Below, piece after piece: positions 12,542 through 25,437 of a stretch of DNA of 25,703 bases. Within the stretch, counting starts at the first letter, position 1. Every line of letters starts with the position of its first letter. A program made the translations under genes and the position numbers. The notes under the pieces were generated by a model, which was given only the letters and a program-made list of their open reading frames with translations, was not told the origin of the DNA and made no database searches. The DNA comes from a virus: positions 1-25,703 of the IMG/VR virus record IMGVR_UViG_3300010430_002823. One strand, 5' to 3'.

Positions 12542-13240
12542 ATGCCCTACGCCAATGTGCTGGAGATCGTCGATGATCTAGCGTCCTACGCAGACGAGAC
12601 CGATGCGACGACGTACACGGTTCCTCCGTCCCGGCAGCGGCGGCTTGGGCACTACGTGCAGCGTGCTATGGACGAGATCTGGGGCTACCGGCCCTGGAGC
12701 TTCAAGTATGCGCTGCACGGTCCCTTCACCTTTTCGAACGGGTTTGCAACCCTTCCAGACAACTTCGCCAACATCGGCGACAACGGGATGCTCTGGAACG
12801 ACGGGGACAATTCCAAGGCCCCGTGGGCTGAGGTCGCCATGCAAGACATGGTGGCCTTGAGAGCAGCTGGCAGGCAGACAGAGAAGAAGTGGTTCACGGT
12901 TGGGCTACTCGATCAGGCTGCTACAGCTACTGCCCAGTTCACACGGCAGCTCTGGATCCCAAAGAACGATGTCAGCTTCGGATCGTTCATGCTCTTCTTT
13001 GAGTTGAACCCCAGGATGTTCGACCTCACAGATCTGGCCAACGAGGAGGTTCCCCTTCCTGAGCTGTTCCACAACGTGCTCTTCGCAGGTGCGCTCGCCA
13101 AGCTCCAGCAGGCGAAGGGTGATCCTCAGCCTATCTGGCGGGCTGAGTACGTGGCGCTTCTCGCCAAGGTCACGGCAAACTTCCACATCCAGTCTGGGCA
13201 GATGGAGCAGCTGCCCAACACGGTCGGTGGTCAATGGTAG
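12542..13240 (+). CDS. Head-tail adaptor, P22 gp4-like tail accessory factor candidate
   Basis: Forms a ring under the portal that closes the head and receives the tail. The 232-aa product has features I associate with phage adaptor proteins of the gp4/gp6 type: an opening helix (NVLEIVDDLASYADE), then PPSRQRRLGHYVQRAMDEIW (residues 22-41) with a following WGYRPWSFKY, a beta-rich middle, and a C-terminal helical bundle with PLPELFHNVLFAGALAKLQQ (172-191). The ATG lies six bases after the preceding TAA with a poor ribosome binding site, so coupling to the upstream gene is likely. The position between head genes and tail genes fits. Family membership is from memory of the pattern, so not certain. 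Confidence 0.72.
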   Translation: MPYANVLEIVDDLASYADETDATTYTVPPSRQRRLGHYVQRAMDEIWGYRPWSFKYALHGPFTFSNGFATLPDNFANIGDNGMLWNDGDNSKAPWAEVAMQDMVALRAAGRQTEKKWFTVGLLDQAATATAQFTRQLWIPKNDVSFGSFMLFFELNPRMFDLTDLANEEVPLPELFHNVLFAGALAKLQQAKGDPQPIWRAEYVALLAKVTANFHIQSGQMEQLPNTVGGQW

Positions 13241-13250
13241 GAGAAGGAAG

Positions 13251-14342
13251 ATGAAGGCAGTCTACAGTCCGTGTGTCGATCCGCTGGAGTACATGTACAA
13301 CTCGAAGAAGAAGAGCCTCCCTCCGAGAGAGATGGTCGTTCTCGACGATGCAGAGGCACGCTACCTCATCAGGAAGTTCGAGAAGTTTGGGGTCAGGTTC
13401 CTCAAGACCGTGAAGAAGGGCAACAAGCTGGTTGCCGACGAGGGTGCCTTCAAGGCTGCTGGAGAGCAGTGGGAGAAGGGCAACAAGGCTTGGGCTGAGG
13501 AAACGGTCACCGATTTCCACAAGGCAACCAAGGATCAGCGTGAAGCTGGGGTCAAGGTAGATGAACCAGTGAGAGTGCAGGTAGCGAAGAAGATCTTGAA
13601 GATCGCCGTCATCGCATGTGCTCTGCTTCTACCTGCAGCAAGCTGGGCACAGGACACCGGCCAACATAAAGCAGCCAACTTCACCTACAAGTACGACGTG
13701 GCCTCGGCGACGATCACCTACTGTGCGACCGAAGGAGCGAATGGAGATCCGTTCGCTCAGCCCTACGACGGCCCCGGGCAGATCGAGACCGTTGGAGACT
13801 CGGTCACGATTACTGGAGCCAACCTTGCTGAGGATGTCTTTCTAGGCGTTGACCTCGGGGATGTGATCTTCATCCGAAGGCAGAACGGGACTACTGAAGA
13901 TCGAGTGGTGGTGACCAACGCCGACAACGACACCATCACAGTGGACACCAGCATCGACCTGTCCAGCGGTGTGGTCTGGAGCTACAGGAAGCTCATCTGT
14001 GGGACGACCGTCAACGACGGCTGGATCAACACAGCAGGCTACTCCATTGTTCAGATGGGGATTCAGTACGACGCAGGAGACGTGACTACTCTTGCTGCGA
14101 CGATGGAGTGCAAGGGTGGTGGCCTGGGAGCAGCCCCAAACCGGGTCTACCCTGGGATCTCCTCAGACTGTGGCGACGGCACCTTGGTCGGAACGACTTG
14201 CGAGTTCGCCAACACTGGAGACGTCCTGTCGTTCAAGATCGCCCACAACGCTTTCACTGCTTGCAGGATTGGAGTGGCGTGGGTCACTGCGGATGGTGGG
14301 ACTCGGGACGAGATCACAGCACTGATCGACGTCGGGAGATAG
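13251..14342 (+). CDS. Fusion: small cytosolic domain plus secreted beta domain (363 aa)
   Basis: One open frame with two unlike parts. Residues 1-105 are a small soluble alpha/beta and Lys-rich helical domain (ARYLIRKFEKFGVRFLKTV). Then comes a complete Sec signal: basic KKILK, hydrophobic IAVIACALLLPAA and a cleavage-type SWA|QD (after residue 133). Residues 134-363 are a Thr/Asp/Gly-rich beta domain with several Cys. A signal in the middle of a protein makes no sense for export, so a second translation start is likely, GTG at 13569 or 13575 (AAGGTAG lies upstream). The ATG at 13251 has a good site (TAGGAGAAGGAAG). Either two proteins are made from one frame or two genes fused by loss of a stop codon. 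Function unknown; the beta domain suggests adhesion or display. Confidence 0.7.
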   Translation: MKAVYSPCVDPLEYMYNSKKKSLPPREMVVLDDAEARYLIRKFEKFGVRFLKTVKKGNKLVADEGAFKAAGEQWEKGNKAWAEETVTDFHKATKDQREAGVKVDEPVRVQVAKKILKIAVIACALLLPAASWAQDTGQHKAANFTYKYDVASATITYCATEGANGDPFAQPYDGPGQIETVGDSVTITGANLAEDVFLGVDLGDVIFIRRQNGTTEDRVVVTNADNDTITVDTSIDLSSGVVWSYRKLICGTTVNDGWINTAGYSIVQMGIQYDAGDVTTLAATMECKGGGLGAAPNRVYPGISSDCGDGTLVGTTCEFANTGDVLSFKIAHNAFTACRIGVAWVTADGGTRDEITALIDVGR

Positions 14343-14345
14343 CCA

Positions 14346-15149
14346 ATGCGGCGCTCGGTTCTTCTCGTGCTGCTCATCGCAGCGACTGCGATCGGTCAAG
14401 AAGCAGACATAGATAGTGACAGGGTCTACCCATCCGAGGATGGGATTGGCGTTGTAGGGATCACTCCAGAGCCTGCCACACCTGTCATTCTCCAGTCTGC
14501 TGTCAACTACTGGAAGATGAACGAGTCAGGAACCGACGATCGGGTGGACTCCATCGGGACGAACGATCTGACCGCCAACGAGGCGATCACCACCACGACA
14601 GGGAAGAACAACACCGCAGCCAACTTCGATTCCGCCACGCACTCTCTCATCGACACGTCTTGGACGGCGTCAGGGTGGACCGGCTTCACCCTCTCGATTT
14701 GGCTCAAGCGTCAGGCGAACCCCAGCCTCAACGCCTGGGCGGTGGTGGAGAACGTCGCGGCTAATCCTGGGTGGGCGACCTACACCCTCACCAATGGTCG
14801 GCAGTTGTTCATCATTCGGAATCAGGCGCTTTCCACCCTAACCGCACTCACCGCAGGAGACATCGGAACCGATTCGGGGTGGGTCCACGTCTGTGGTACG
14901 TGGGAGGCCGACGACAACGCCCGAATCTACATCGACGGGACTCTGACCCAAACCTCTGGCGGCACGATGGACGGGACGGTTCGAGACGTCGGGGTGGGCA
15001 TCAAGTTCGGGTCAGCGCAGGCTGGCGGCAACCCGTGGTCGGGCACGAACGAGGGCTACATCGACGAGGTCGCCATCTTCGACACCAACATCGGTCAGGC
15101 GGGATGCAGCGACATTTACGACGCGGGAGCCGGGAAGTTCTGGCCCTAA
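14346..15149 (+). CDS. Secreted LamG (concanavalin-like) domain protein (267 aa)
   Basis: Residues 1-18 are a signal peptide (MRRSVLLVLLIAATAIGQ), with cleavage likely near IG|QE. Residues about 48-267 form a LamG-type jelly roll, as seen in phage tail and adhesin proteins: YWKMNESGTDDRVDS at the start, FTLSIWLKRQ, WVHVCGTWEADDNARIYIDG and a closing YIDEVAIFD. Such domains bind sugars or other surface ligands. The gene is three bases after the previous stop, with GGGAGATAG just before the ATG. LamG domains are common on virions, but a cleavable Sec signal is not usual for a virion protein. It may be a receptor-binding or host-envelope protein. Confidence 0.82.
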   Translation: MRRSVLLVLLIAATAIGQEADIDSDRVYPSEDGIGVVGITPEPATPVILQSAVNYWKMNESGTDDRVDSIGTNDLTANEAITTTTGKNNTAANFDSATHSLIDTSWTASGWTGFTLSIWLKRQANPSLNAWAVVENVAANPGWATYTLTNGRQLFIIRNQALSTLTALTAGDIGTDSGWVHVCGTWEADDNARIYIDGTLTQTSGGTMDGTVRDVGVGIKFGSAQAGGNPWSGTNEGYIDEVAIFDTNIGQAGCSDIYDAGAGKFWP

Positions 15150-15158
15150 GGAGATGAG

Positions 15159-17282
15159 ATGAGGAAGCTACTCTTTGCGCTGTTTCTGAGCAGCACACTG
15201 GCGTTTGGTCAGTCCTACCCCCCTGACTCTACGAAGGACGTTGCTGTCGGATTCGGGTCAGGGTTGCTGACGAACGTCTGCATCGAGGCAGATCAGACCC
15301 TCACGACCACAGGGACAATCGAAGAGGTCTTGGCAACCTGCACGATCCCTGCGAACACCTTCCCTGCGAGCTTCGCAGGGGTGGAGATCATCGCAACCTA
15401 CATCGGGGCTGCGAACGCCAACTCCAAGACGATGAACGTCCGCGTCGATGGGATCGCTGGGACGATTGTTCTAGAGGTCACAGGCGACACAGACAGCGCC
15501 GACACCTACGAGTTGAGTGGCTTCATGACGGTCGGCAGCGGGGGCTCTGGCAACCTCAGCGGGTCGGGGACGACTACTCAAGGCACGGGTGCTAGCACAA
15601 ACGAGCGGATGAGGGTCACTGGGCTGACCTTCTCCTCGGCGATCGACGTGGTCTTCACAGGGCTCACCGCGACCTCGTCGGGGGACGTCACCCTCACGAG
15701 CTACATGGTGCGTCTGATGACCGGGGTCACTGGGGACTCTGGTGGGCATTGGAACGGTGGAGTCTTCGACAATCCTGCTCTTGGCCCTGCGGGAGTTGTG
15801 GGAGCGCCGGGATACGCTTTCAGTGCACAGCCAACCACAGGCATGTTCAAGCTACTCGACGACTATCTGAGCTTCTCGTCTGATGGGCTGGAGATGCTCC
15901 GCTTCCGCAACCAAGCGACTGTCCAGGGGCTGTTCACAATTACCGGGGGCACCACAGGCAACGAGACGCACACGATCTCAGGAAGCACAACAGGATCCTT
16001 CTCCCTCACGACACAGCATGTGGCGTCGAGCAACAGGGCTCAGATCATCACGTCCAGCCAAAGCACCTCGAACACGATGGAGTTTCGAGCTAGTCAAGCC
16101 GGGACGAATCCAACAGGTCTGTTCATCCAGGCCAACTCCCCAGAGCAAGCGCGCCTTGATGTGAATGGCTTGGGAAGGTTCGGGGCCTTCGACACCTACG
16201 TCGAGACGCTTGGTGTCCCTCATCGAATTGACGACGGGACCGTCACTGCCCCGGGTCTCGCCATCTCAAGCGACCTAGATCATGGGATCTGGCACACCGG
16301 CACGTCCACGTACCTCTCTGGGCTGGACACGACTCAGAACGACAGTGCCTATGTGCTGGTGGATGGTGACGGGAACTTCGCTCGGCTCGGCATGGAGACT
16401 CCCGGGGGCACTGGCATTGTTAGCTCGCTGGCTGGAAGTATCACCCTGGCGACCGGCCCTGCTGCTGCTGGCATCACAAGGGTCACGGTGGACAGCACCA
16501 ACGTCACTTCGACGCTGCCGTCCCTGTGGCCGAACGCTGGCTACTGCTTCACGACCGACAACGACGCCTGCCTTCAGTTGCTCGGTGTGAACAACTTGCG
16601 GCTCACCAACGCGACCTCGGACCCGGAAGACCTCATCCAGATCAACACGACCGCGATCACCATCGAGGCGGGCGAGGACGACAACTCCGACTACTCGACC
16701 ATCACCGTGACTGAGGGCGTCAGCATCAACCTCGATGTGGAAGACAACCAAGGAACCGGAACGAATGCGGACCTAACCCTCTCTGCGGCGGCTGACCAGT
16801 TCAGGGTGGACGTCAACGACCAGACCAATGACGTGGTCCTCGATGCAACTCCGACGGCGATCATCGAGAGCTTCGACACGACGATCGACCGGGTCTTCCG
16901 TCCGCGAGCGCCTGTGGCCCTCACTACTGCTGTAGCCACACCAGTCGTGCAGGTTGGTGTCACAGCAGGGAACGCGGTTGGCTTCACTGTCAACTGGACT
17001 GTTCAAGCCGACGATGCCACCGACTTCCAGAGTCGCAGGGGTAGCACCTACGTCGCCGCCGTGAACAAGGCGACAGTCGAGACCTGCACTGTGGGAGACA
17101 TCGGAACACCGATCGTTGCTGTGTCGGCGGGAACGCTCACGGTGACTACATCCTGCGACACGACTCCGGTGAATGCAGTGGACTTCGAGATCGACGCAGT
17201 CAGCAGTCTCACAGAGACGACCCTTGAGGTCTTCTACAGTGTCGTCAAGGACGACGGCTTCGGTAGTCTTACAGGACAATAG
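15159..17282 (+). CDS. Fibre-like protein with N-terminal signal peptide (707 aa)
   Basis: Long beta-rich protein, very rich in Thr, Ser, Gly, Val and Asp and poor in Lys, typical of phage fibres or adhesins. Residues 1-18 (MRKLLFALFLSSTLAFGQ) are a Sec signal, with cleavage near FG|QS. After a beta-sandwich-like region (25-190), a short module is visible about three times: GAPGYAFSAQPTTGMF (215-230), TAPGLAISSDLDHGIW (363-378) and a looser NAGYCFTTDNDACLQL (459-474). The module resembles a motif common in phage fibre proteins. The C-terminal part (600-707) looks like one more beta domain with two Cys. No chaperone or peptidase signature is seen. Strong ribosome binding site (AAGGAGATGAG). 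Receptor binding is an inference. Confidence 0.75.
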   Translation: MRKLLFALFLSSTLAFGQSYPPDSTKDVAVGFGSGLLTNVCIEADQTLTTTGTIEEVLATCTIPANTFPASFAGVEIIATYIGAANANSKTMNVRVDGIAGTIVLEVTGDTDSADTYELSGFMTVGSGGSGNLSGSGTTTQGTGASTNERMRVTGLTFSSAIDVVFTGLTATSSGDVTLTSYMVRLMTGVTGDSGGHWNGGVFDNPALGPAGVVGAPGYAFSAQPTTGMFKLLDDYLSFSSDGLEMLRFRNQATVQGLFTITGGTTGNETHTISGSTTGSFSLTTQHVASSNRAQIITSSQSTSNTMEFRASQAGTNPTGLFIQANSPEQARLDVNGLGRFGAFDTYVETLGVPHRIDDGTVTAPGLAISSDLDHGIWHTGTSTYLSGLDTTQNDSAYVLVDGDGNFARLGMETPGGTGIVSSLAGSITLATGPAAAGITRVTVDSTNVTSTLPSLWPNAGYCFTTDNDACLQLLGVNNLRLTNATSDPEDLIQINTTAITIEAGEDDNSDYSTITVTEGVSINLDVEDNQGTGTNADLTLSAAADQFRVDVNDQTNDVVLDATPTAIIESFDTTIDRVFRPRAPVALTTAVATPVVQVGVTAGNAVGFTVNWTVQADDATDFQSRRGSTYVAAVNKATVETCTVGDIGTPIVAVSAGTLTVTTSCDTTPVNAVDFEIDAVSSLTETTLEVFYSVVKDDGFGSLTGQ

Positions 17283-17293
17283 GAGATCGAGGA

Positions 17294-17683
17294 ATGCAAC
17301 ATCGTCACGCACACCGAGCCGAAGAGTCTGGGGACTTCACCCGTGCCCGTCATGGGATGGACCCCACCCTGAAGAAGGTTCTCTTCGGTGGAGTAGCTCT
17401 TCTCCTGTCTGTTCTAGGAGTTCTCCTTGGATACGATCGTGATGGAATCAAGACGAGCGCCGAGGCCGGGGAGAAGGTTTCCATCGAGAACCGGGCTGAG
17501 ATTGGTCTCGTGAAGAACGATCTGGATCATGTGAAGGCAGACGTCGAGGATCTGAAGTCGGGCCAAGCGACTATCGTCGAGGGTCAGAACAAGATCCTAG
17601 AGACGCTCTATACCCTGCCCAGCAGGAGACGTCAGCAGGAGAGACCAGTCGTCGAGTTGACGCCTTCAACGCCGCCTGAGTAA
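17294..17683 (+). CDS. Membrane-anchored coiled-coil protein, possible spanin or holin
   Basis: 129 aa: a basic N-terminus, one membrane segment (residues 29-47, VLFGGVALLLSVLGVLLGY), then a heptad-patterned helix (about 55-105, with VKNDLDHVKADVEDLKSG) and a Pro-rich end. The start at 17294 has GAGATCGAGGA upstream; an in-frame ATG at 17357 would leave six residues before the hydrophobic stretch. The layout of an N-terminal anchor followed by a periplasmic coiled coil fits an inner-membrane spanin subunit or a single-span holin. It is nine bases upstream of the endolysin gene. No Cys, so disulphide pairing is not expected. Lysis role is an inference from context and topology. Confidence 0.6.
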   Translation: MQHRHAHRAEESGDFTRARHGMDPTLKKVLFGGVALLLSVLGVLLGYDRDGIKTSAEAGEKVSIENRAEIGLVKNDLDHVKADVEDLKSGQATIVEGQNKILETLYTLPSRRRQQERPVVELTPSTPPE

Positions 17684-17692
17684 GGAGATCGC

Positions 17693-18175
17693 ATGACCGA
17701 GTTTCCGACAGGTCTAGCTGAGATCAAAGCGGTCTACGGAGACCCGACCACCTACATTCAAGATGGAGGGTTGGTCAAGCCGGAGTGGGAAGGTCATACT
17801 CTCGGCATGCTGCACCTACCGGCACCGCTGCCGCTTGGGTGGGACCACTCGATCGCGGTGTCGAGGGTGCGGATTCACTACAAGCTGATGGAGTCGCTTG
17901 GGAAGGTGTTCGACAAGATCAAGGCCGATGGGAACTGGAATCGGATCGCGTCCTTCGACGGCACCTACGTGTGGAGAGCGAAGCGTGCTGCACACAAGCT
18001 CTCGACCCACTCGTGGGGGATTGCTATCGACCTGAACGCATCGACGAACCAGCTGGGGGAGATCGGCGATATGCCCCCGGAGATCATCGCGCCCTTCGTT
18101 GATGAGGGCTGGGAGTGGGGCGGAAACTGGGAGCGCAAGGACTGCATGCACTTCCAGGCTTGCCACGGGTACTAG
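17693..18175 (+). CDS. Endolysin, M15-type zinc peptidase
   Basis: Cuts peptide bonds in peptidoglycan to release phage progeny. The M15/VanY signature is present: KLSTHSWGIAIDLN (residues 102-115) supplies the zinc ligands His106 and Asp113, and WERKDCMHFQ (146-155) supplies the catalytic Asp150 and zinc ligand His153. GWEWGGNW (139-146) is the usual preceding motif. With 160 aa it is a single-domain enzyme without a cell-wall binding module. No signal peptide is visible, so it needs a holin to cross the inner membrane. Ribosome binding site AAGGAG ten bases before the ATG. Whether it acts as an L-Ala-D-Glu or a D-Ala-type peptidase cannot be told from sequence. Confidence 0.93.
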   Translation: MTEFPTGLAEIKAVYGDPTTYIQDGGLVKPEWEGHTLGMLHLPAPLPLGWDHSIAVSRVRIHYKLMESLGKVFDKIKADGNWNRIASFDGTYVWRAKRAAHKLSTHSWGIAIDLNASTNQLGEIGDMPPEIIAPFVDEGWEWGGNWERKDCMHFQACHGY

Positions 18176-18178
18176 AAG

Positions 18179-18772
18179 ATGCCCTTCAGGGGATCAGAGA
18201 AGCCAGCGCAACGCGCCAGCACAGCCACGCACCAGAAGCGGAACGAGGCTGCTGGGGGTCGCGGGCGTGGGCCTGCCTACCGGGGCGCTCGTGGTGGGGG
18301 TGACGTTCGTGGTGGGATGGCTGCCTACCAGCATGGGGTGCGGAACCGTCAGGGCACAGGCCCGAGGCTTCTCAACAACCAGGGCCAGCAGATCAGGGGA
18401 ACTGGGGCCTCTGCCAACCAGGGCACTCCTTGGGGTGGGGGCAAGCGTCGGCCCTCTGAAGCGTTCGACTTCGAATCCGAGAATGAGGGCTTCTTCTCTG
18501 ACGTGCTGCAGAAGCGCTTCGGGGGTGACTCCTCGATGCGTGATCGCCTCATCGGGATGTTCGATTCGAGTGATCCGATGGCAGCGGTCAACAGGTTCAA
18601 CGAGTGGTCGGGGAACACAGGAGAGGTCTTCAATCCGGGAGATGCTGCCCGAGCAGAGACCGGGGTGTGGCGCAACGCTGCTGGGCAGAACATGTTTGAT
18701 AAGCGTCACCAGACAGCAGAGCAGCAGGCTGAGGCGTTGGAGGAGTTCAACATTCTGAGAGGGTTCATCTGA
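18179..18772 (+). CDS. Arg/Gly-rich protein of unknown function (197 aa)
   Basis: The first 95 residues are low in complexity: GGRGRGPAYRGARGGGDVRGG and related text, rich in Gly, Arg, Gln and Asn. The second half (about 97-197) could form a helical fold (SEAFDFESENEGFFSDVLQ; QQAEALEEFNILRGF at the end). RG-rich segments like this often bind RNA or DNA or stay disordered. It starts four bases after the endolysin stop with little room for a ribosome binding site, and its TGA overlaps the next ATG. It may be an internal virion protein ejected with the DNA; no direct support. Confidence 0.65.
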   Translation: MPFRGSEKPAQRASTATHQKRNEAAGGRGRGPAYRGARGGGDVRGGMAAYQHGVRNRQGTGPRLLNNQGQQIRGTGASANQGTPWGGGKRRPSEAFDFESENEGFFSDVLQKRFGGDSSMRDRLIGMFDSSDPMAAVNRFNEWSGNTGEVFNPGDAARAETGVWRNAAGQNMFDKRHQTAEQQAEALEEFNILRGFI

Positions 18773-19407
18773 TGCTTCCTTCGGGAGCAGACCCACACGC
18801 CCGAGCGTTCCGAGGTGCCGACTATGGTGCGAAGGAACAGATGCAGGCGATCTCTTCAGCCACGGATGCTCCGCAGGCCGCAACACAGCCTGCTTCCAAC
18901 GACACAGGGGGACATTGGAGAGGGAAGCTCCCAGGCGGGGTAGACGAGTCTTGGGTACGGCGTGCTGTGTCGTTGCTCGGTCAGGACAAGGTCGGATCGT
19001 TCGATGACCTCGCTGACCCAGAGCATCGAGCGTGGCTGCGCCGAAAGATGAACAAGGCAAAAGGTCAGCAGAAGGCTGCACCCGTTGGGGAGGTGGTAGA
19101 TGAAGAGGTCGCGGAAGAGACGGGACCTGAGGAAGAAGCTCCTCCGCAGACGAAAGAACGACGTGCAGTTATCCCCTCCGGACGCATCCCTTCGCGGAGC
19201 ATTCCACGGCCCACAACCGGAATCCCTGGGCCGGGAGGATGGGTCCCAGCAGGAGACGACCTCTGGTGGCCACCGTACCCAACGACAGCTGGGCCTATGG
19301 CCCGGCCTGAGCTGACCACGGGTATCGAGACTGGACTGAAGAGGACACTTTCAGCTGGGGATCAGTCAGATGCCTTGGAACGAGGCTTTCTAACGAATCG
19401 AGTGTGA
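18772..19407 (+). CDS. Unknown protein, Pro-rich C-terminus (211 aa)
   Basis: ATG shares its A with the preceding TGA, so translation is probably coupled. Residues about 58-100 form a compact helical stretch (GVDESWVRRAVSLLGQDKVG then DLADPEHRAWLRRKMNKAKG) that could be a small DNA- or protein-binding domain. Around it are disordered parts: an Ala/Gln/Ser N-terminus, an acidic block (DEEVAEETGPEEEAPP, about 109-124) and a Pro/Arg/Trp-rich end. No known family. It could be a virion-internal protein, like its neighbour. Confidence 0.65.
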   Translation: MLPSGADPHARAFRGADYGAKEQMQAISSATDAPQAATQPASNDTGGHWRGKLPGGVDESWVRRAVSLLGQDKVGSFDDLADPEHRAWLRRKMNKAKGQQKAAPVGEVVDEEVAEETGPEEEAPPQTKERRAVIPSGRIPSRSIPRPTTGIPGPGGWVPAGDDLWWPPYPTTAGPMARPELTTGIETGLKRTLSAGDQSDALERGFLTNRV

Positions 19408-19410
19408 ATC

Positions 19411-20223
19411 ATGAGTGGTCGAACGAAGGACGTTGTCTGGGTCTACATGCTGATCCTCACAGTGGTAGTTGCTGTATGGGCTGCTTGTGGGAGCGACAAG
19501 CCTACGACTCCAGAGTTCGTACCGACGATCCTTGACGTTCCTGTCGAGCAGGAAGTGGAGCCGCAGATCATTACGGCTCCTCAGAGCGTGGCCGATCCCA
19601 ACTTCGTCGGCTCGTGGAATGGCTGCAAGCTGACCATCGAGGCGAAGAGAAGCCGAGACTTCTTGGTGCAGATCTTCACCCACACGGGGAGCATCTGGAA
19701 CCAGACTGCTGTTCACAAGGAGACGATCCATGTCTCTCCTGGGACGAATGAGTTCGACTTCTGTTGGGCGAAGACTGAGTTCCCGGGCTGTCGCATGCAG
19801 ATCGACATTGGGAACCTTCTCACCTATCACTGGCTGGATGGTGGGCCGTGCCCGGAACCGACTCCGTCGCCTTCACCTTCTCCGAGTCCAAGCCCAAGTC
19901 CGAGCCCTTCTCCCTCACCTAGCCCTTCTCCAAGCCCGTCGCCGAGCCCGAGTCCTTCTCCGACTCCGTGCCCTACGCCGGAACCAAAGCTCTGCCATGT
20001 CTCCAATAAAGGCGGCAAGGATGGGCAGGTGAACCTCGTAATCACGTCGCATGGTCACACACAGCATCTCAATGCGAACAAGTTCTGCCCACCGGATCTG
20101 TTGGGTGACTGCTCGTGCGAGGCTGCGATTCAGGCCGCGAAGGATTGTGGTATTGAAGCGGACGGGGGGTTCTTCTGCAAGAACCAAACGGACTTCAGCG
20201 CTTCTACTGGAGGCTGTGAATGA
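19411..20223 (+). CDS. Lipoprotein-like protein with Pro-Ser linker (270 aa)
   Basis: The N-terminus has a short basic start, a hydrophobic stretch (residues 8-25) and WAACGSD, with Cys26 as candidate lipid site; Trp at -3 is atypical, so a plain membrane anchor is the alternative. A first domain (about 58-145) has several Cys and beta-like segments. A long linker (152-184) alternates Pro and Ser, 16 times, and ends TPCPTPEP. A second Cys-rich domain (195-270, seven Cys) follows. The arrangement of anchor, domain, stiff linker and domain suits a protein that reaches across the periplasm or out from the surface. Function unknown. The ribosome binding site is weak. Confidence 0.7.
   Translation: MSGRTKDVVWVYMLILTVVVAVWAACGSDKPTTPEFVPTILDVPVEQEVEPQIITAPQSVADPNFVGSWNGCKLTIEAKRSRDFLVQIFTHTGSIWNQTAVHKETIHVSPGTNEFDFCWAKTEFPGCRMQIDIGNLLTYHWLDGGPCPEPTPSPSPSPSPSPSPSPSPSPSPSPSPSPSPSPSPTPCPTPEPKLCHVSNKGGKDGQVNLVITSHGHTQHLNANKFCPPDLLGDCSCEAAIQAAKDCGIEADGGFFCKNQTDFSASTGGCE
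19864..19962 (+). repeat. Pro-Ser coding repeat
   Basis: About 99 bases made of alternating proline and serine codons, encoding residues 152-184 of the lipoprotein-like protein. The codons vary (CCT, CCG, CCA, CCC with TCT, AGC, AGT, TCG, TCA), so selection acts on the dipeptide rather than on a recent DNA slippage event. Such linkers are extended and resist compact folding. Confidence 0.9.
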
Positions 20224-21359
20224 CTCGAAGCCTTGTCGTTATCCTCAGCGTGCTGCTTCTACCGGCCTGCGGGGGCAACCCTGGCCCGGGGCCGATTCCG
20301 CCCGAACCGACGCCCGAACCAACGCCCCCATACACAGCGGCGTGTCAGGAACTCCTCGACCAGGGGCTTCCGTGGTGCCACGACGTCTCGCCACCGTTGA
20401 CGTGTGGAGAGTGTGTCCACAATCCCTCAGGGGATCCACGTCACTGCGAGAAGGCTCCTGACTGCAACGAGCCTCCACCACCTGAGCTGCCTGAGCCGCA
20501 GTGCTCGACCTTCATGGACAGGGGAGGGACGATCCAGCTCACGTCTGGAGAGTGTGACTGCTACCGAGAGACAGTCTGGATTCCATGTCCTGATCCTCCT
20601 CAACCCACCGAGTGTGGGTTCCCTCAGGGGATCCCAGAAGACGACTTCACTTACGACCCAAATGGACAGGGGACACTGGGCTCAGTGATCAACGCGACGA
20701 TGTCCGACATGACTGGCTGCTCTGTGGGGAGTGACTGTCCGATCACCTTCGCGCCCGACGTGTGGATGCACCTCGTCTGCGACAAGCTGTGCAACGAGCG
20801 CAGCCTCAACTGTGGACGGCACATCGACCAGACCCCAGGAGGGACCGATCAGATCAGCGTGATCGTCGGGAGCTTCTGTGATGGTCGGCCTCATCAGCAG
20901 TACCAGATCTTCAACTACGGAGGGGGCAAGGTTCGGTGGGCTCCAGGTGGGAGTCAGGGCACGTACACAGTGAGCTGCACAGACCAACCTCCTCCGAGTC
21001 CGCAGAACTGTACTGACCCGGATCCTCGGGGGTTGTCGGCGAGGTTCGACTGCCATCGTGTTGGGAACGGCAACAAGATCGACTGCACGTACAAAGTCAC
21101 CGTGCGAGAATACTGCGAGCAGGTGTGCAGCCCCATCGAACCTGACGTCTGCTTCACCGGAAGAAACAAATGTCCAATGCGAATGGAGGGCGACCCCGAG
21201 AGACACGTCTGCTACGAAGCGGTAGTCGCTCCGCAGAAGTGGTGGTGCAACGGTCAGGAGATCGAGTCCACCGAGAATCCAGCGCAGGCGGTCTGTTCAG
21301 GCCCAGCCCGGACTTGTACCGGAGATGGGGCGACCTGTCAGGAGATCCCGCCCCGATGA
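20220..21359 (+). CDS. Cysteine-rich lipoprotein (379 aa)
   Basis: The signal MTRSLVVILSVLLLPACGG ends in a lipobox-like LPAC with Cys17; Gly follows at +2, which in enteric bacteria favours the outer membrane. A Pro/Glu linker (residues 20-37) leads into a body with 30 further Cys, about one in twelve, spread along its whole length and often paired closely (TCGEC, ECDCY, CDKLC). Reduced cytosol would not support this, so an oxidising periplasmic or surface location is likely. The middle (170-250) has beta-like text (QISVIVGSFCDG, QIFNYGGG). No domain is recognised. The ATG overlaps the previous TGA (ATGA), with GGAGG five bases upstream. Role unknown: superinfection exclusion or envelope remodelling are guesses. 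Confidence 0.75.
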   Translation: MTRSLVVILSVLLLPACGGNPGPGPIPPEPTPEPTPPYTAACQELLDQGLPWCHDVSPPLTCGECVHNPSGDPRHCEKAPDCNEPPPPELPEPQCSTFMDRGGTIQLTSGECDCYRETVWIPCPDPPQPTECGFPQGIPEDDFTYDPNGQGTLGSVINATMSDMTGCSVGSDCPITFAPDVWMHLVCDKLCNERSLNCGRHIDQTPGGTDQISVIVGSFCDGRPHQQYQIFNYGGGKVRWAPGGSQGTYTVSCTDQPPPSPQNCTDPDPRGLSARFDCHRVGNGNKIDCTYKVTVREYCEQVCSPIEPDVCFTGRNKCPMRMEGDPERHVCYEAVVAPQKWWCNGQEIESTENPAQAVCSGPARTCTGDGATCQEIPPR

Positions 21360-21784: not shown

Positions 21785-23236
21785 ATGCCGAGGAAGTCCA
21801 TCCAGAAAGGCGGGGAGTATTTCGAGTACCGGAATGGGCTCGGGGGGTTCTCGTGGGAGGGTATGGCCACCAAGGTCGACCCCGGCGGGAACCCTCCAAA
21901 TCGCCCCCGCTACTTGGGTAATACCCGCATCCAGGGTGGGGTAATCGTAGGGAATCCACCCTTCAAGGACACTGGAACGATCGTCCCAGAGACGTTGGTG
22001 CTGGATCCGAACACCCAGAACCTGAACAACCGACCTCCCTTCGATGACACTGGATCAGAGAAGTGGCTGAAGCACTGGGTTGGAGAGCACAACTCGGTGG
22101 GTGGGACTCGGCTGTGGTGGGGAGGGGAGCCGCCTCTCACCTACGTCGACCCTGACTGGATCGTCACCAACGGTGGAGCGTTCATCGGCTTCATCGACAC
22201 AGACGCAGACCCTCCCTTCAACGAGGTTGCCTACTATCCAGCAGGAGACTCGTGGACTCCGTCGATCGAGAAGTTCGACCGCGAGATCTACATGGGTGAC
22301 TTCGGTAAGCTCAGGAAGCTGCAGCTAATCCGCCCGCCTGCAGGTGTTGATCCCTCTGACATCCTGAGCGCGCCTGCTGATGAGACGATCGCTACCTTCC
22401 CGGGGTATCGGGTAGCGGCTCTGCAGGAGTTCAACGGCAAGCTCTACTTCCTGCTGACAGATCCGTTCACAGCAGCCGTTGGGGAGATCTGGTCATGGGA
22501 CGGGTTTCAGGTGGTGCAGGAGTTCGTCACTGCGACGACGGCTGCTGCGGGGGCTGCGGCGGCTGTCTACAAGAACCAGTTGGTGTTCACTCTCGCTGGT
22601 TACGGGAGCATCATCTATCTCGATCCATCGGCGGGTTGGACGACTGCCACGCTTGGTGGGTTCGACTCCAGTCCCTTCCTGAACTCGATGGCCCAGTACA
22701 GGGACAAGCTCTACATCATGGACGGGGTGGACAAGATCCACTCTTGGGACGGAACGACACTGGCTCTGGAGTACACCATCACTGCGACCTTTGGTGAGAT
22801 GGGCAGGGGTAGCATCAACGCGATTCCCGCGCTCGCCTTCTGCTGCGCGGTGTTGGCTGATCGCTTCTACTTCGCCTGGACGGACGTAGCGGTGACCCCA
22901 AACCTGATCACCATCGGATGCCTCGATGCGAAGACAGCTGCAGCTTCTCAGTGGATCCCCAACTACCAGCGGACCTTCTCTATCACGGATCTTGGAGGCT
23001 ACCCTTCGATCGGGGGCAACGGGACTTGTACAGCGCTTGCTCCATATAGAGGAAGACTGTGGGGAGCCTTCGGAGACTTCCCGGTAGGGAACTCCCAGGT
23101 CATGACTCACTCGATCCAGTTCGCTCCGTTCGATGGATGGTTCCGCTGTGACGGTGCCAACGGTCCAGGGATCAGCTTCGGATCGGGGAGTCCGTTCCCA
23201 GGCAAGGTGCCGATCAACTTCTTCAGGAGCCTCTGA
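21785..23236 (+). CDS. Beta-propeller tail protein (483 aa)
   Basis: After a Gly/Pro-rich N-terminal part (residues 1-130), repeating blade-like units appear at about 40-50 residue spacing: FNGKLYFLLTDP with EIWSWDG, YKNQLVFTLAGYGSIIYLD, YRDKLYIMDGVDKIHSWDG, LADRFYFAWTD and YRGRLWGAFGD. This fits a beta-propeller, as in nozzle or tail-tube proteins of short-tailed phages. No signal peptide or catalytic motif. The ATG is three bases after the preceding stop; its final TGA shares one base with the next ATG. It probably works with the following protein in the tail. Exact role unassigned. Confidence 0.7.
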   Translation: MPRKSIQKGGEYFEYRNGLGGFSWEGMATKVDPGGNPPNRPRYLGNTRIQGGVIVGNPPFKDTGTIVPETLVLDPNTQNLNNRPPFDDTGSEKWLKHWVGEHNSVGGTRLWWGGEPPLTYVDPDWIVTNGGAFIGFIDTDADPPFNEVAYYPAGDSWTPSIEKFDREIYMGDFGKLRKLQLIRPPAGVDPSDILSAPADETIATFPGYRVAALQEFNGKLYFLLTDPFTAAVGEIWSWDGFQVVQEFVTATTAAAGAAAAVYKNQLVFTLAGYGSIIYLDPSAGWTTATLGGFDSSPFLNSMAQYRDKLYIMDGVDKIHSWDGTTLALEYTITATFGEMGRGSINAIPALAFCCAVLADRFYFAWTDVAVTPNLITIGCLDAKTAAASQWIPNYQRTFSITDLGGYPSIGGNGTCTALAPYRGRLWGAFGDFPVGNSQVMTHSIQFAPFDGWFRCDGANGPGISFGSGSPFPGKVPINFFRSL

Positions 23237-25437
23237 TGTACGCATGCGGAGTCTACCGAAAGGGTGTCGCGGCCAACTACATGGGCGGTGTCTACCTATG
23301 GGCTGGGAACCAAAACGGAGGGTGGGGAGCTGATGGCCAAGGTGCGATCTCGGACGCCGAGTACTACGGACAGAAGAGAGGGCGCTGGTTCTGTTCTCTC
23401 CCGTTCGGAGTTGTGGCTGTTGATGCTCCCGTTGCTCAAGCCAGTTACGCAGGTCGGCTCTACCTCGGGGGCGGCTACTCGCACAACCTCGTCCTCGATG
23501 AACACCACCGGCTTTGGAAGCAAGGCATCCGGCCCCCAGAAGAGATCCCAGAGTTCTCCTCCGGTGGAGGATCAGGAACCCTCACCGCGTACTTTTCGTG
23601 GTACGACGAGGCCACTGGCGAAAGGAGTCCACTAAGTCTCGGGGAGACGAACTCGATCGCGTTGGGCTCTGCTCGGACGTGGATCAACCTTCCTGAGCGC
23701 CCACCGGATGACGTCTATCTGAGCGACGACCTCGTCACCCTCGATGGGACTACTGAGGGCGGGCTCGATCAGGGAGTCTGGTGGATCGACGCAGCTGAGA
23801 CAGAAGGTGGTCGGATCGGGATGATGCGGCCAGGAGACGAGATCGACCTGTTGGAGGGAGCGACTCAGCGCTTCTCGCAGGCGTTCTTCATGAACCCTCT
23901 GAGCTTCGACACGTTCAACGACTGGACTGGAATCGGGGTCACCCCAACTGCGGTGGACATCCTGCCGGTGTCGAGGGCTACACACCTTGAGCTTTGGCTA
24001 CAGCCTGCTGCAGATTTCCCACGGCTCGCGCTCAGGGTTGCTCGGGGGACCACAACGGTCACGGAGTCGACGGCGCTTGGAGATCTGGGCGAGGCGTTCA
24101 TCGACTCCTTCCAGCGGCTTCCTCGTGCAGCGGTCAACGCGATCTACCACGATCGTCAGGTTGTCGCAGGGGATCCGGAGAACCCGGACACCGTCTACCT
24201 CTCGCAGCTGTTCTTCCCGGAGCGGTGGGACGGACTGAGCTTCCGAACGAAGAGCGGGGAGCCCATCACGGGGATCCTTGCCACACGGGACTACTGTCTG
24301 GTGTTCACCCGGAACGCGACCTACATGCTGCAGGGGTACACCGACTCCGACTACACCTTCCAGCTCATCGACCAGAGTCTTGGGGCGGTCGGCCACAACT
24401 GCAATGTGGTGATCCACGGGAACCCGTTCGTCTGGACTGAGAAGGGACCGTACATGTACAACGGCATGTACCACCCCCTCTCTCCTGAGAATCGGTGGAA
24501 GCCTCCCTCGACCGGAGCGGTCTCTCTTGCTCAGCCCATCGGGCCTGCTGAAAGGATGGAGGCAACGGACGATCCGTACTTCAACACCTACATCGTCTCC
24601 AATGCGTGGGATGCAGCTCGGTCAGTCGGTCAGCCCTACAGAGAAGACGACACCTTTGTTGACGAGAGCAGATTCTTTCATGCAGTGTTGGACTACACGT
24701 TGGTGCAACCCGAGACTGGTGGAGCGCTACGTCCAGCACGCTTGAGCTTCGACCGGAAGATGGCTCTTGGATCAGTCGAGTTCGAACAGCTGAAGTACCT
24801 CAGGACTCGGTGGGGAGAAGGCAACCTCTACCACGTTGGGTACAACCCATCACCGAACATCGGCGTCTACACCGATCCCTATGGGGAGACCTCACCGACA
24901 ACGGTCAGCTTTGTCATCATTGCGATGAGGAACTACTCACCGCTTCATGCCAATGCTTGGCCGACGAACATGATCATCACCCCGCAGTCTCGGATCATCC
25001 TGCCCTTCTACTACTTCGACGAGCCGGGAGGCTACAGCTTCGACGCGAAGAAGTTCACCAAGGTGTGGGTCCACGGCTCGTTCCCTCAGACCACGAACAA
25101 CTGGAGGGTGCGGGTCTTTGCTGGGCCTGACTCCCGCTTCTGGAACCAGTTGAAGGACGGCAACCAGTGGCAGGACGGGAACGGAGATGACTGGCGGTAC
25201 GAGTCTCCCAGGCTGGAGATCAGTCCCGGAGAGAACAACTTCGGGGGCTACGCAGTCGACAACGAGGATCACGTCCTTGGGGACATCCTTGAGCCGACCC
25301 TCCCGACCAGCCTCCAGGGCAGGGGGCTGTGGCTCGACATCGAGGGCGGCGACGATTGGATGTGGTTTGAGGGCTTTGGGGGCCGATGGATCCACGGAGC
25401 CATCTCTCAGCCCTTCGTCGTGAGCACGCCGGAATAA
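23236..25437 (+). CDS. Tail nozzle-like protein (733 aa)
   Basis: Large beta-rich tail protein. Features that resemble nozzle proteins of podoviruses (P22 gp10 or T7 gp12 type): ASYAGRLYLGGGYSHNLVLD near residues 74-93, TAYFSWYDEATGERSPLS (about 118-135), then VYLSQLFFPERWDGLSFR with the following GEPITGILATRDYCLVFTR and ATYMLQGYTDSDYTFQLIDQ. These are typical of propeller blades that read surface data along the tail channel. The C-terminal third (about 480-733) is a separate beta region. The preceding gene may be the first half of the same structural unit. No membrane or signal segment. Ribosome binding is by overlap with the upstream stop. The nozzle call rests on remembered pattern and context. 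Confidence 0.7.
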   Translation: MYACGVYRKGVAANYMGGVYLWAGNQNGGWGADGQGAISDAEYYGQKRGRWFCSLPFGVVAVDAPVAQASYAGRLYLGGGYSHNLVLDEHHRLWKQGIRPPEEIPEFSSGGGSGTLTAYFSWYDEATGERSPLSLGETNSIALGSARTWINLPERPPDDVYLSDDLVTLDGTTEGGLDQGVWWIDAAETEGGRIGMMRPGDEIDLLEGATQRFSQAFFMNPLSFDTFNDWTGIGVTPTAVDILPVSRATHLELWLQPAADFPRLALRVARGTTTVTESTALGDLGEAFIDSFQRLPRAAVNAIYHDRQVVAGDPENPDTVYLSQLFFPERWDGLSFRTKSGEPITGILATRDYCLVFTRNATYMLQGYTDSDYTFQLIDQSLGAVGHNCNVVIHGNPFVWTEKGPYMYNGMYHPLSPENRWKPPSTGAVSLAQPIGPAERMEATDDPYFNTYIVSNAWDAARSVGQPYREDDTFVDESRFFHAVLDYTLVQPETGGALRPARLSFDRKMALGSVEFEQLKYLRTRWGEGNLYHVGYNPSPNIGVYTDPYGETSPTTVSFVIIAMRNYSPLHANAWPTNMIITPQSRIILPFYYFDEPGGYSFDAKKFTKVWVHGSFPQTTNNWRVRVFAGPDSRFWNQLKDGNQWQDGNGDDWRYESPRLEISPGENNFGGYAVDNEDHVLGDILEPTLPTSLQGRGLWLDIEGGDDWMWFEGFGGRWIHGAISQPFVVSTPE

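Follow-up and report, generated by a model that had tools for sequence, protein, structure and literature searches.

The window analysed here is an entire viral contig of 25,703 bases from a short-tailed phage, with 24 genes. The terminase (1278), portal (3429) and capsid (8789) genes precede the gene for a tail adaptor protein (12542), which is followed by three genes for predicted exported proteins, here designated P1, P2 and P3. These are followed in turn by a small one-TM protein, an M15 endolysin, two genes without assignment, two lipoprotein-like genes, a holin-like gene and two tail proteins, the last of which is nozzle-like. The features are summarized in Table 1.

Table 1. Features of the cassette region and the downstream genes of the window.
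Feature	Position	Strand	Basis and remarks
Tail adaptor protein	12542..13240	+	AlphaFold model from 10-sequence alignment; directly 5' of the cassette
106-codon cytoplasmic-type ORF	13251..13568	+	Strong Shine-Dalgarno, GC3 0.73 (coding-like); PF09956 E 0.077
P1, exported two-domain beta protein, conserved cassette core	13569..14342	+	Predicted signal 13569-13649; Gln 13650 first mature residue
P2, exported LamG-type lectin-like protein	14346..15149	+	Predicted signal 14346-14396; VYPSED 14424-14441
P3, exported fibre-like protein, six cysteines	15159..17282	+	Predicted signal 15159-15209; YPPD 15216-15227 just after the cut
One-TM small protein	17360..17683	+	Single TM segment at the N-terminus, coiled-coil-like tail; resembles a holin or inner spanin; adjoins endolysin
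Endolysin, M15 peptidase	17693..18175	+	PF13539 E 7e-14; phrog_17001 endolysin E 8.7e-14
Exported, probably lipoprotein; PSPSPS linker, 13 Cys	19411..20223	+	Sequence and scorer
Cysteine-rich lipoprotein (31 Cys), PAC|G lipobox-like site	20220..21359	+	Scorer lipo 6.25
Nozzle-type tail protein	23236..25437	+	phrog_3287 virion structural protein E 2e-11

The window phage belongs to a family of uncultured soil phages. Its relatives (14 other contigs) were collected by searches with the portal and capsid proteins and were thus not chosen for having P1. The ORF that precedes P1 has no counterpart in the relatives compared; its weak Pfam match is to a phage cement protein. The P1 frame is open upstream to the ATG at 13251, and the ORF joins P1 without a stop. 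Given the open frame and the coding-like ORF, P1 may carry a small gene as a real fusion or may have an internal start; an assembly error could also account for the arrangement. The most likely start of P1 is GTG 13569 or TTG 13596; MKRLITAFVLALLLPAAGWA|QN of the relative L008 matches LKIAVIACALLLPAASWA|QD of the window. In L029, P1 appears to be extended by 102 residues at its N-terminus; this stretch was discarded as a counterpart of the window's ORF, as it is not homologous and looks like the adaptor in another frame.

Extension of the one-TM ORF to 17294 gives a weak match to DUF2746, and the same gene is found in L008 at 15760. In two relatives, L031 (16013-16237, 74 aa) and L033 (15096-15290, 64 aa), a small one-TM protein separates P1 from the exported gene that follows. 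Cysteine-rich lipoprotein genes recur 3' of the cassette, in the window and in L012, where a similar protein with a proline linker and 18 Cys is encoded at 18559-19695. The best PDB sequence match of the nozzle-type protein, a weak one (E 0.047), is a 1005-residue chain in the tail entries of Escherichia phage SU10 (7z47 etc.), which has the length of SU10 gp17. Giant Cys-free proteins are encoded 3' of the nozzle genes in G008 (30997-38799, 2600 residues), G011 (19739-27964, 2741 residues) and G014 (56070-61484, 1804 residues) and are probably internal or ejected proteins.

Export signals and paired cysteines

Signal peptides were predicted with our own rule-based scorer, a simple rule set. 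Among 37 annotated E. coli genes it called 12 of 13 exported, none of 17 cytosolic and one of seven membrane proteins (weakly); the exported protein missed was hyaA, which has a long Tat-type signal. The initial annotation had described three consecutive products with Sec-type signals and Gln near the cut. Its coordinates and cut sites proved right, the scores being 5.15 for P1, 4.81 for P2 and 3.91 for P3. All three proteins (257-707 aa) carry n-, h- and c-regions of the Sec/signal-peptidase-I type with a predicted cleavable site that places Gln at +1 (SWA|QD, AIG|QE and AFG|QS, respectively). Assignment as lipoproteins or outer-membrane barrels was rejected, as neither a lipobox nor a barrel signature was seen. 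None of the 12 genes 5' of P1 in the window gives any signal score, and the only positives 3' of the cassette are the one-TM protein (4.46), the two lipoprotein-like products and, weakly (2.23), the nozzle-type protein. Control pieces of lambda, P22, SU10, phi14:2 and phi38:1 gave one to three isolated positives each and no runs of signal-bearing genes. The sole positive in the lambda piece was Lom, which is exported and encoded beside tail genes.

With +1 residues assigned by eye and by scorer, Gln follows the predicted cut in 6 of 11 P1 proteins, 12 of 18 other cassette proteins and 4 of 5 exported genes of the cultured phage Tunturi_2. Gln at +1 is the Q-rule of Bacteroidota signal-peptidase-I substrates (PMC5837995). 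In a crude test, Gln occupied the candidate +1 site of 15 of 35 exported candidates in Candidatus Acidiferrum, 9 of 11 in Spirosoma and 1 of 5 in E. coli; by this rough measure +1 Gln seems to be favoured in an Acidobacteriota genome too, though less than in a Bacteroidota genome. In the Candidatus Acidiferrum loci (L064-L083, L026) +1 Gln seems common, though the Q-rule was published as Bacteroidota-specific. Phages of Porphyromonas gingivalis (proposed family Nixviridae) also encode substrates of signal peptidase I in which Gln stands at +1 (PMC10367356); these differ in being five genes of unknown function from prophages of a Bacteroidota host, and the passage on them describes no fibre slot or run (PMC10367356).

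Across 11 phages, P1 has six cysteine columns, which are present or absent only as the pairs 1-2, 3-6 and 4-5; P1 of L030 has one cysteine in addition to these columns. Shuffling of columns gave zero half-pairs in 0 of 20000 trials, and in 47 of 20000 with the five distinct patterns, a comparison from which kinship is not fully removed. Beyond P1, every complete exported protein of L008, L009, L012 and the window has an even number of mature cysteines or none; L031 and L032 have exceptions, so that parity by itself is not used as evidence. As the cysteines are lost only as matched pairs, the P1 sequences indicate that they very probably form disulfides, which would place the maturation of P1 outside the cytoplasm.

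These features bear on the possibility that the proteins are not exported at all, their hydrophobic N-termini being signal-like docking peptides of the virion. Every member does have a hydrophobic segment at its N-terminus, and it is by their N-termini that tail fibres commonly dock on the adaptor, as in SU10 (PMC9509320). The docking N-termini of SU10 are not hydrophobic, however, and the Lys/Arg start, hydrophobic core, A-x-A/G cut site, frequent +1 Gln and paired cysteines of the cassette proteins make this explanation improbable. Export is strongly supported by the conserved signals, the paired cysteines, the +1 Gln and the finding of such genes again in the relatives and in one cultured phage. 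We consider it very likely that P1-P3 are exported; signal peptidase I would then cleave them at the predicted sites.

The slot beside the tail adaptor

Judged by its modelled fold, the product of gene 12542 is a tail adaptor. The model aligns with the SU10 adaptor 7z47_B at Z 14.3 (201 aligned, rmsd 4.0), with the adaptor of cyanophage A4 at Z 15.1 and with T7 gp11 at Z about 10, and nearly all of the top 29 matches are tail adaptors or connectors. Plain sequence comparison of the window adaptor with SU10 gp11 was not significant; adaptor homologues in some relatives match phrog_6013, 'tail protein'.

In SU10 the adaptor gene (gp11) is followed by the long tail fibre genes gp12 and gp13, holin, endolysin, a short fibre and the nozzle. 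The gp12 and gp13 proteins (proximal and distal long tail fibre) were seen by cryo-EM as trimers on the adaptor (PMC9509320), to which the fibre N-termini bind (PMC9509320). Because the gene upstream of the cassette is an adaptor and the next genes of SU10 encode long fibres, the exported genes occupy the long-fibre slot. The likeness to gp12 and gp13 of this Kuravirus extends to the position before holin and endolysin, with the nozzle further on, and to the fibre-type beta character of the proteins. The SU10 fibres differ in having no signal peptides and few cysteines, whereas P1-P3 carry Sec signals; there are two fibre genes in SU10 and three to five exported genes here, with no sequence similarity detected.

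The beta-rich, LamG or fibre-like domains noted in the initial annotation were confirmed. P2 matches LamG (PF13385, E 3.9e-13) and phrog_8510, a virion structural protein (E 1.9e-5), and has a counterpart in L008. P3 is beta/fibre-like without a family match and has counterparts in L008 and L029. The P1 model (pLDDT 77, pTM 0.74) is a two-domain beta protein with no confident global match among known folds, in which an insert (29-113) resembles phage tail protein domains at modest Z (7.7, 7.6 and 6.9). Neither P1 nor P3 found a match among families or in the phage collection. It is likely that the cassette proteins are of fibre or lectin type.

A P1 homologue with a signal lies directly 3' of the adaptor in all ten relatives whose contigs reach the slot (L008, L004, L009, L012, L013, L029, L030, L031, L032 and L033). 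In most of these, P1 is followed by one to three further exported beta-rich proteins of variable kind; in L013 the contig ends soon after P1, and the next start has a weak signal. Among exported members, matches to tail-spike and virion families were found in L030 (phrog_4636, E 6e-14). Scans of viral contigs in which P1, P2, P3 or the nozzle served as the single query gave no matches, and neither did tblastn of the phage collection with P1, P3 and an 858-residue exported protein of L029; the relatives could be reached only through the portal and capsid proteins. A capsid scan of bacterial genomes was likewise negative. P1 was not found in 396 genomes of the Acidobacteriota phylum, an empty answer that proves little.

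Tunturi_2 is a cultured podovirus isolated on Tunturiibacter psychrotolerans, a member of the Acidobacteriota (PMC11924767). By our scorer, its gp12, gp13, gp14, gp16 and gp17 are predicted to be exported, and they lie between the tail protein gp11 and the endolysin gp21 (L097 9802-22744). It resembles the window in this run of exported genes in the same slot and in the preference for Gln at +1. The exported proteins of Tunturi_2 are large beta proteins with many cysteines, pectate-lyase-like or beta-helix domains among them, and no other large fibre gene was recognised in this phage. Tunturi_1 has the same gp12, and no exported cassette-type genes were found among the structural genes of Tunturi_3. 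The P1 profile found no homologue in Tunturi_2 or Tunturi_3. The Tunturi phage paper makes no mention of signal peptides (PMC11924767).

An exported protein of L012 (15788-17059) and one of Candidatus Acidiferrum (L026 4759-6141) end alike, with 83% identity over the C-terminal 46 residues of the L012 protein. The common C-terminal module reads GTPANGT..YCSDCTIANPCAG.GTGAFAKRLNG.WVCN; sequences resembling it were found in 14 of 297 Acidobacteriota genomes. This shared module, together with Tunturi_2, points to Acidobacteriota as the host of the window-type phages.

The position of the cassette between the adaptor and the endolysin and holin-like genes could also suggest a part of the lysis machinery, in which exported proteins and lipoproteins would act on the envelope to complete lysis in the manner of spanins. 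Weak matches to Rz-like spanins were obtained for the lipoprotein at 19411 (E 0.034) and in L032 (E 0.008). The exported proteins reach 858 residues in the window clade, carry lectin and fibre modules unlike spanins, and vary in number and content, which leaves a lysis function highly improbable.

Virion fibres or a host-surface system

The initial annotation had left two possibilities: the set works at the host surface, or its products are joined to the virion during exit. The evidence leans to virion parts, since the genes lie 3' of the adaptor in the place of the long tail fibres and encode fibre and lectin modules. On this reading the short-tailed phage would produce P1-P3 late in infection as proteins of the tail-fibre type. 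The Sec pathway of the host would export them, signal peptidase I would remove their signals and so expose Gln, and oxidation would take place in the periplasm. They would meet the particles only at cell lysis and dock there onto the tail adaptor, through P1 and through the short N-terminal peptide of [YF]PP type that cleavage exposes, and they may serve as receptor- or polysaccharide-binding side fibres. The support computed for this explanation consists of the conserved signals, the paired cysteines, the slot beside the adaptor and the shared post-cleavage motif. Late export, periplasmic oxidation and joining at lysis, taken together, are proposed tentatively, at slightly below an even chance; for the attachment of P1-P3 to the virion as such, the chances appear about evenly balanced.

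The window, L008 and L029 together have seven exported proteins other than P1, and in six of these the motif [YF]P[PISE] lies within 15 mature residues of the cut (for example VYPSED, SYPPDS and VYPPEG). Over the remaining 6,006 positions of the exported set the motif occurs once, and it is absent from 51 exported candidates of bacterial origin. It was noticed post hoc in the close clade only, and some of the seven proteins are mutually homologous. As the P2 and P3 types are otherwise unlike yet share the motif, it is plausible from these sequences that the [YF]PP-type peptide is a common docking peptide.

Several observations speak against virion fibres. Normal tail fibres, including SU10 gp12 and gp13, have no signals, export takes the proteins away from the place where particles assemble, the fold of P1 finds no confident global match, and the [YF]PP motif is post hoc. 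In the relatives G008 and G014, signal-less fibre or LamG genes lie 3' of the giant internal protein and could be the real virion fibres; the notion that the exported proteins are the only receptor binders was dropped because of these genes.

The strongest rival to the virion-fibre reading, possible though on the doubtful side, is that the set acts at the host surface or in exit and at no stage becomes part of the virion. In such a system soluble lectins, fibres and, in Tunturi_2, pectate-lyase-like proteins would be exported late. By binding or breaking down either the receptor that the phage itself uses or host polysaccharide, they would keep progeny off debris and from re-infecting dying cells, the neighbouring lipoproteins belonging to the same system. 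Export and disulfides are consistent with it, as are the cysteine-rich lipoproteins and lysis genes that adjoin the cassette, the separate signal-less genes of G008 and G014, and the pectate-lyase and beta-helix proteins exported by Tunturi_2. Precedents exist in lambda Lom and in T5 Llp (PMC9586334), both exported and encoded beside tail genes; the llp gene adjoins that of the receptor-binding protein pb5, and Llp blocks FhuA (PMC9586334). P1, however, is conserved along with the structural genes and in the fibre slot, no membrane anchor was recognised in P1-P3, and superinfection exclusion is known from small lipoproteins and not from sets of three to five large beta proteins.

Llp, Cor and Lom resemble the cassette as exported phage proteins with genes beside tail or receptor-binding genes. 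They are single small lipoproteins or outer-membrane proteins, whereas the cassette consists of several large, soluble-looking beta proteins in a row, one of which is conserved, and its place is always the fibre slot. The exclusion proteins of the Llp/Cor type are small outer-membrane lipoproteins with a lipobox, while P1-P3 are of the signal-peptidase-I type. The statement in the initial annotation that tail proteins carry no such signals holds for the controls SU10 gp12 and gp13, but exported proteins encoded beside tail genes were already known. No precedent for the layout was found in the open-access literature searched, in agreement with the initial annotation, and that literature held no described case of Sec-exported tail fibres.

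Tailed-phage particles are taught as cytoplasmic assemblies, the tail parts being made and assembled inside the cell. The broader proposal, that Acidobacteriota-type phages build tail fibres outside the cytoplasm with Sec signals, a Gln docking peptide, periplasmic disulfides and joining at lysis, is held more tentatively still than the sequence of events proposed for P1-P3, at somewhat less than an even chance. The cultured phages Tunturi_1 and Tunturi_2 carry exported genes in the slot, which makes the question testable in the laboratory. The style of the signal peptides offers a way of reading phage-host links. If the proteins are attached to the virion, part of the virion would be made in another compartment, a two-compartment route of virion assembly that would be new; alternatively, these phages would keep a whole set of exported lectins that manage the host surface at exit, which would also be new.
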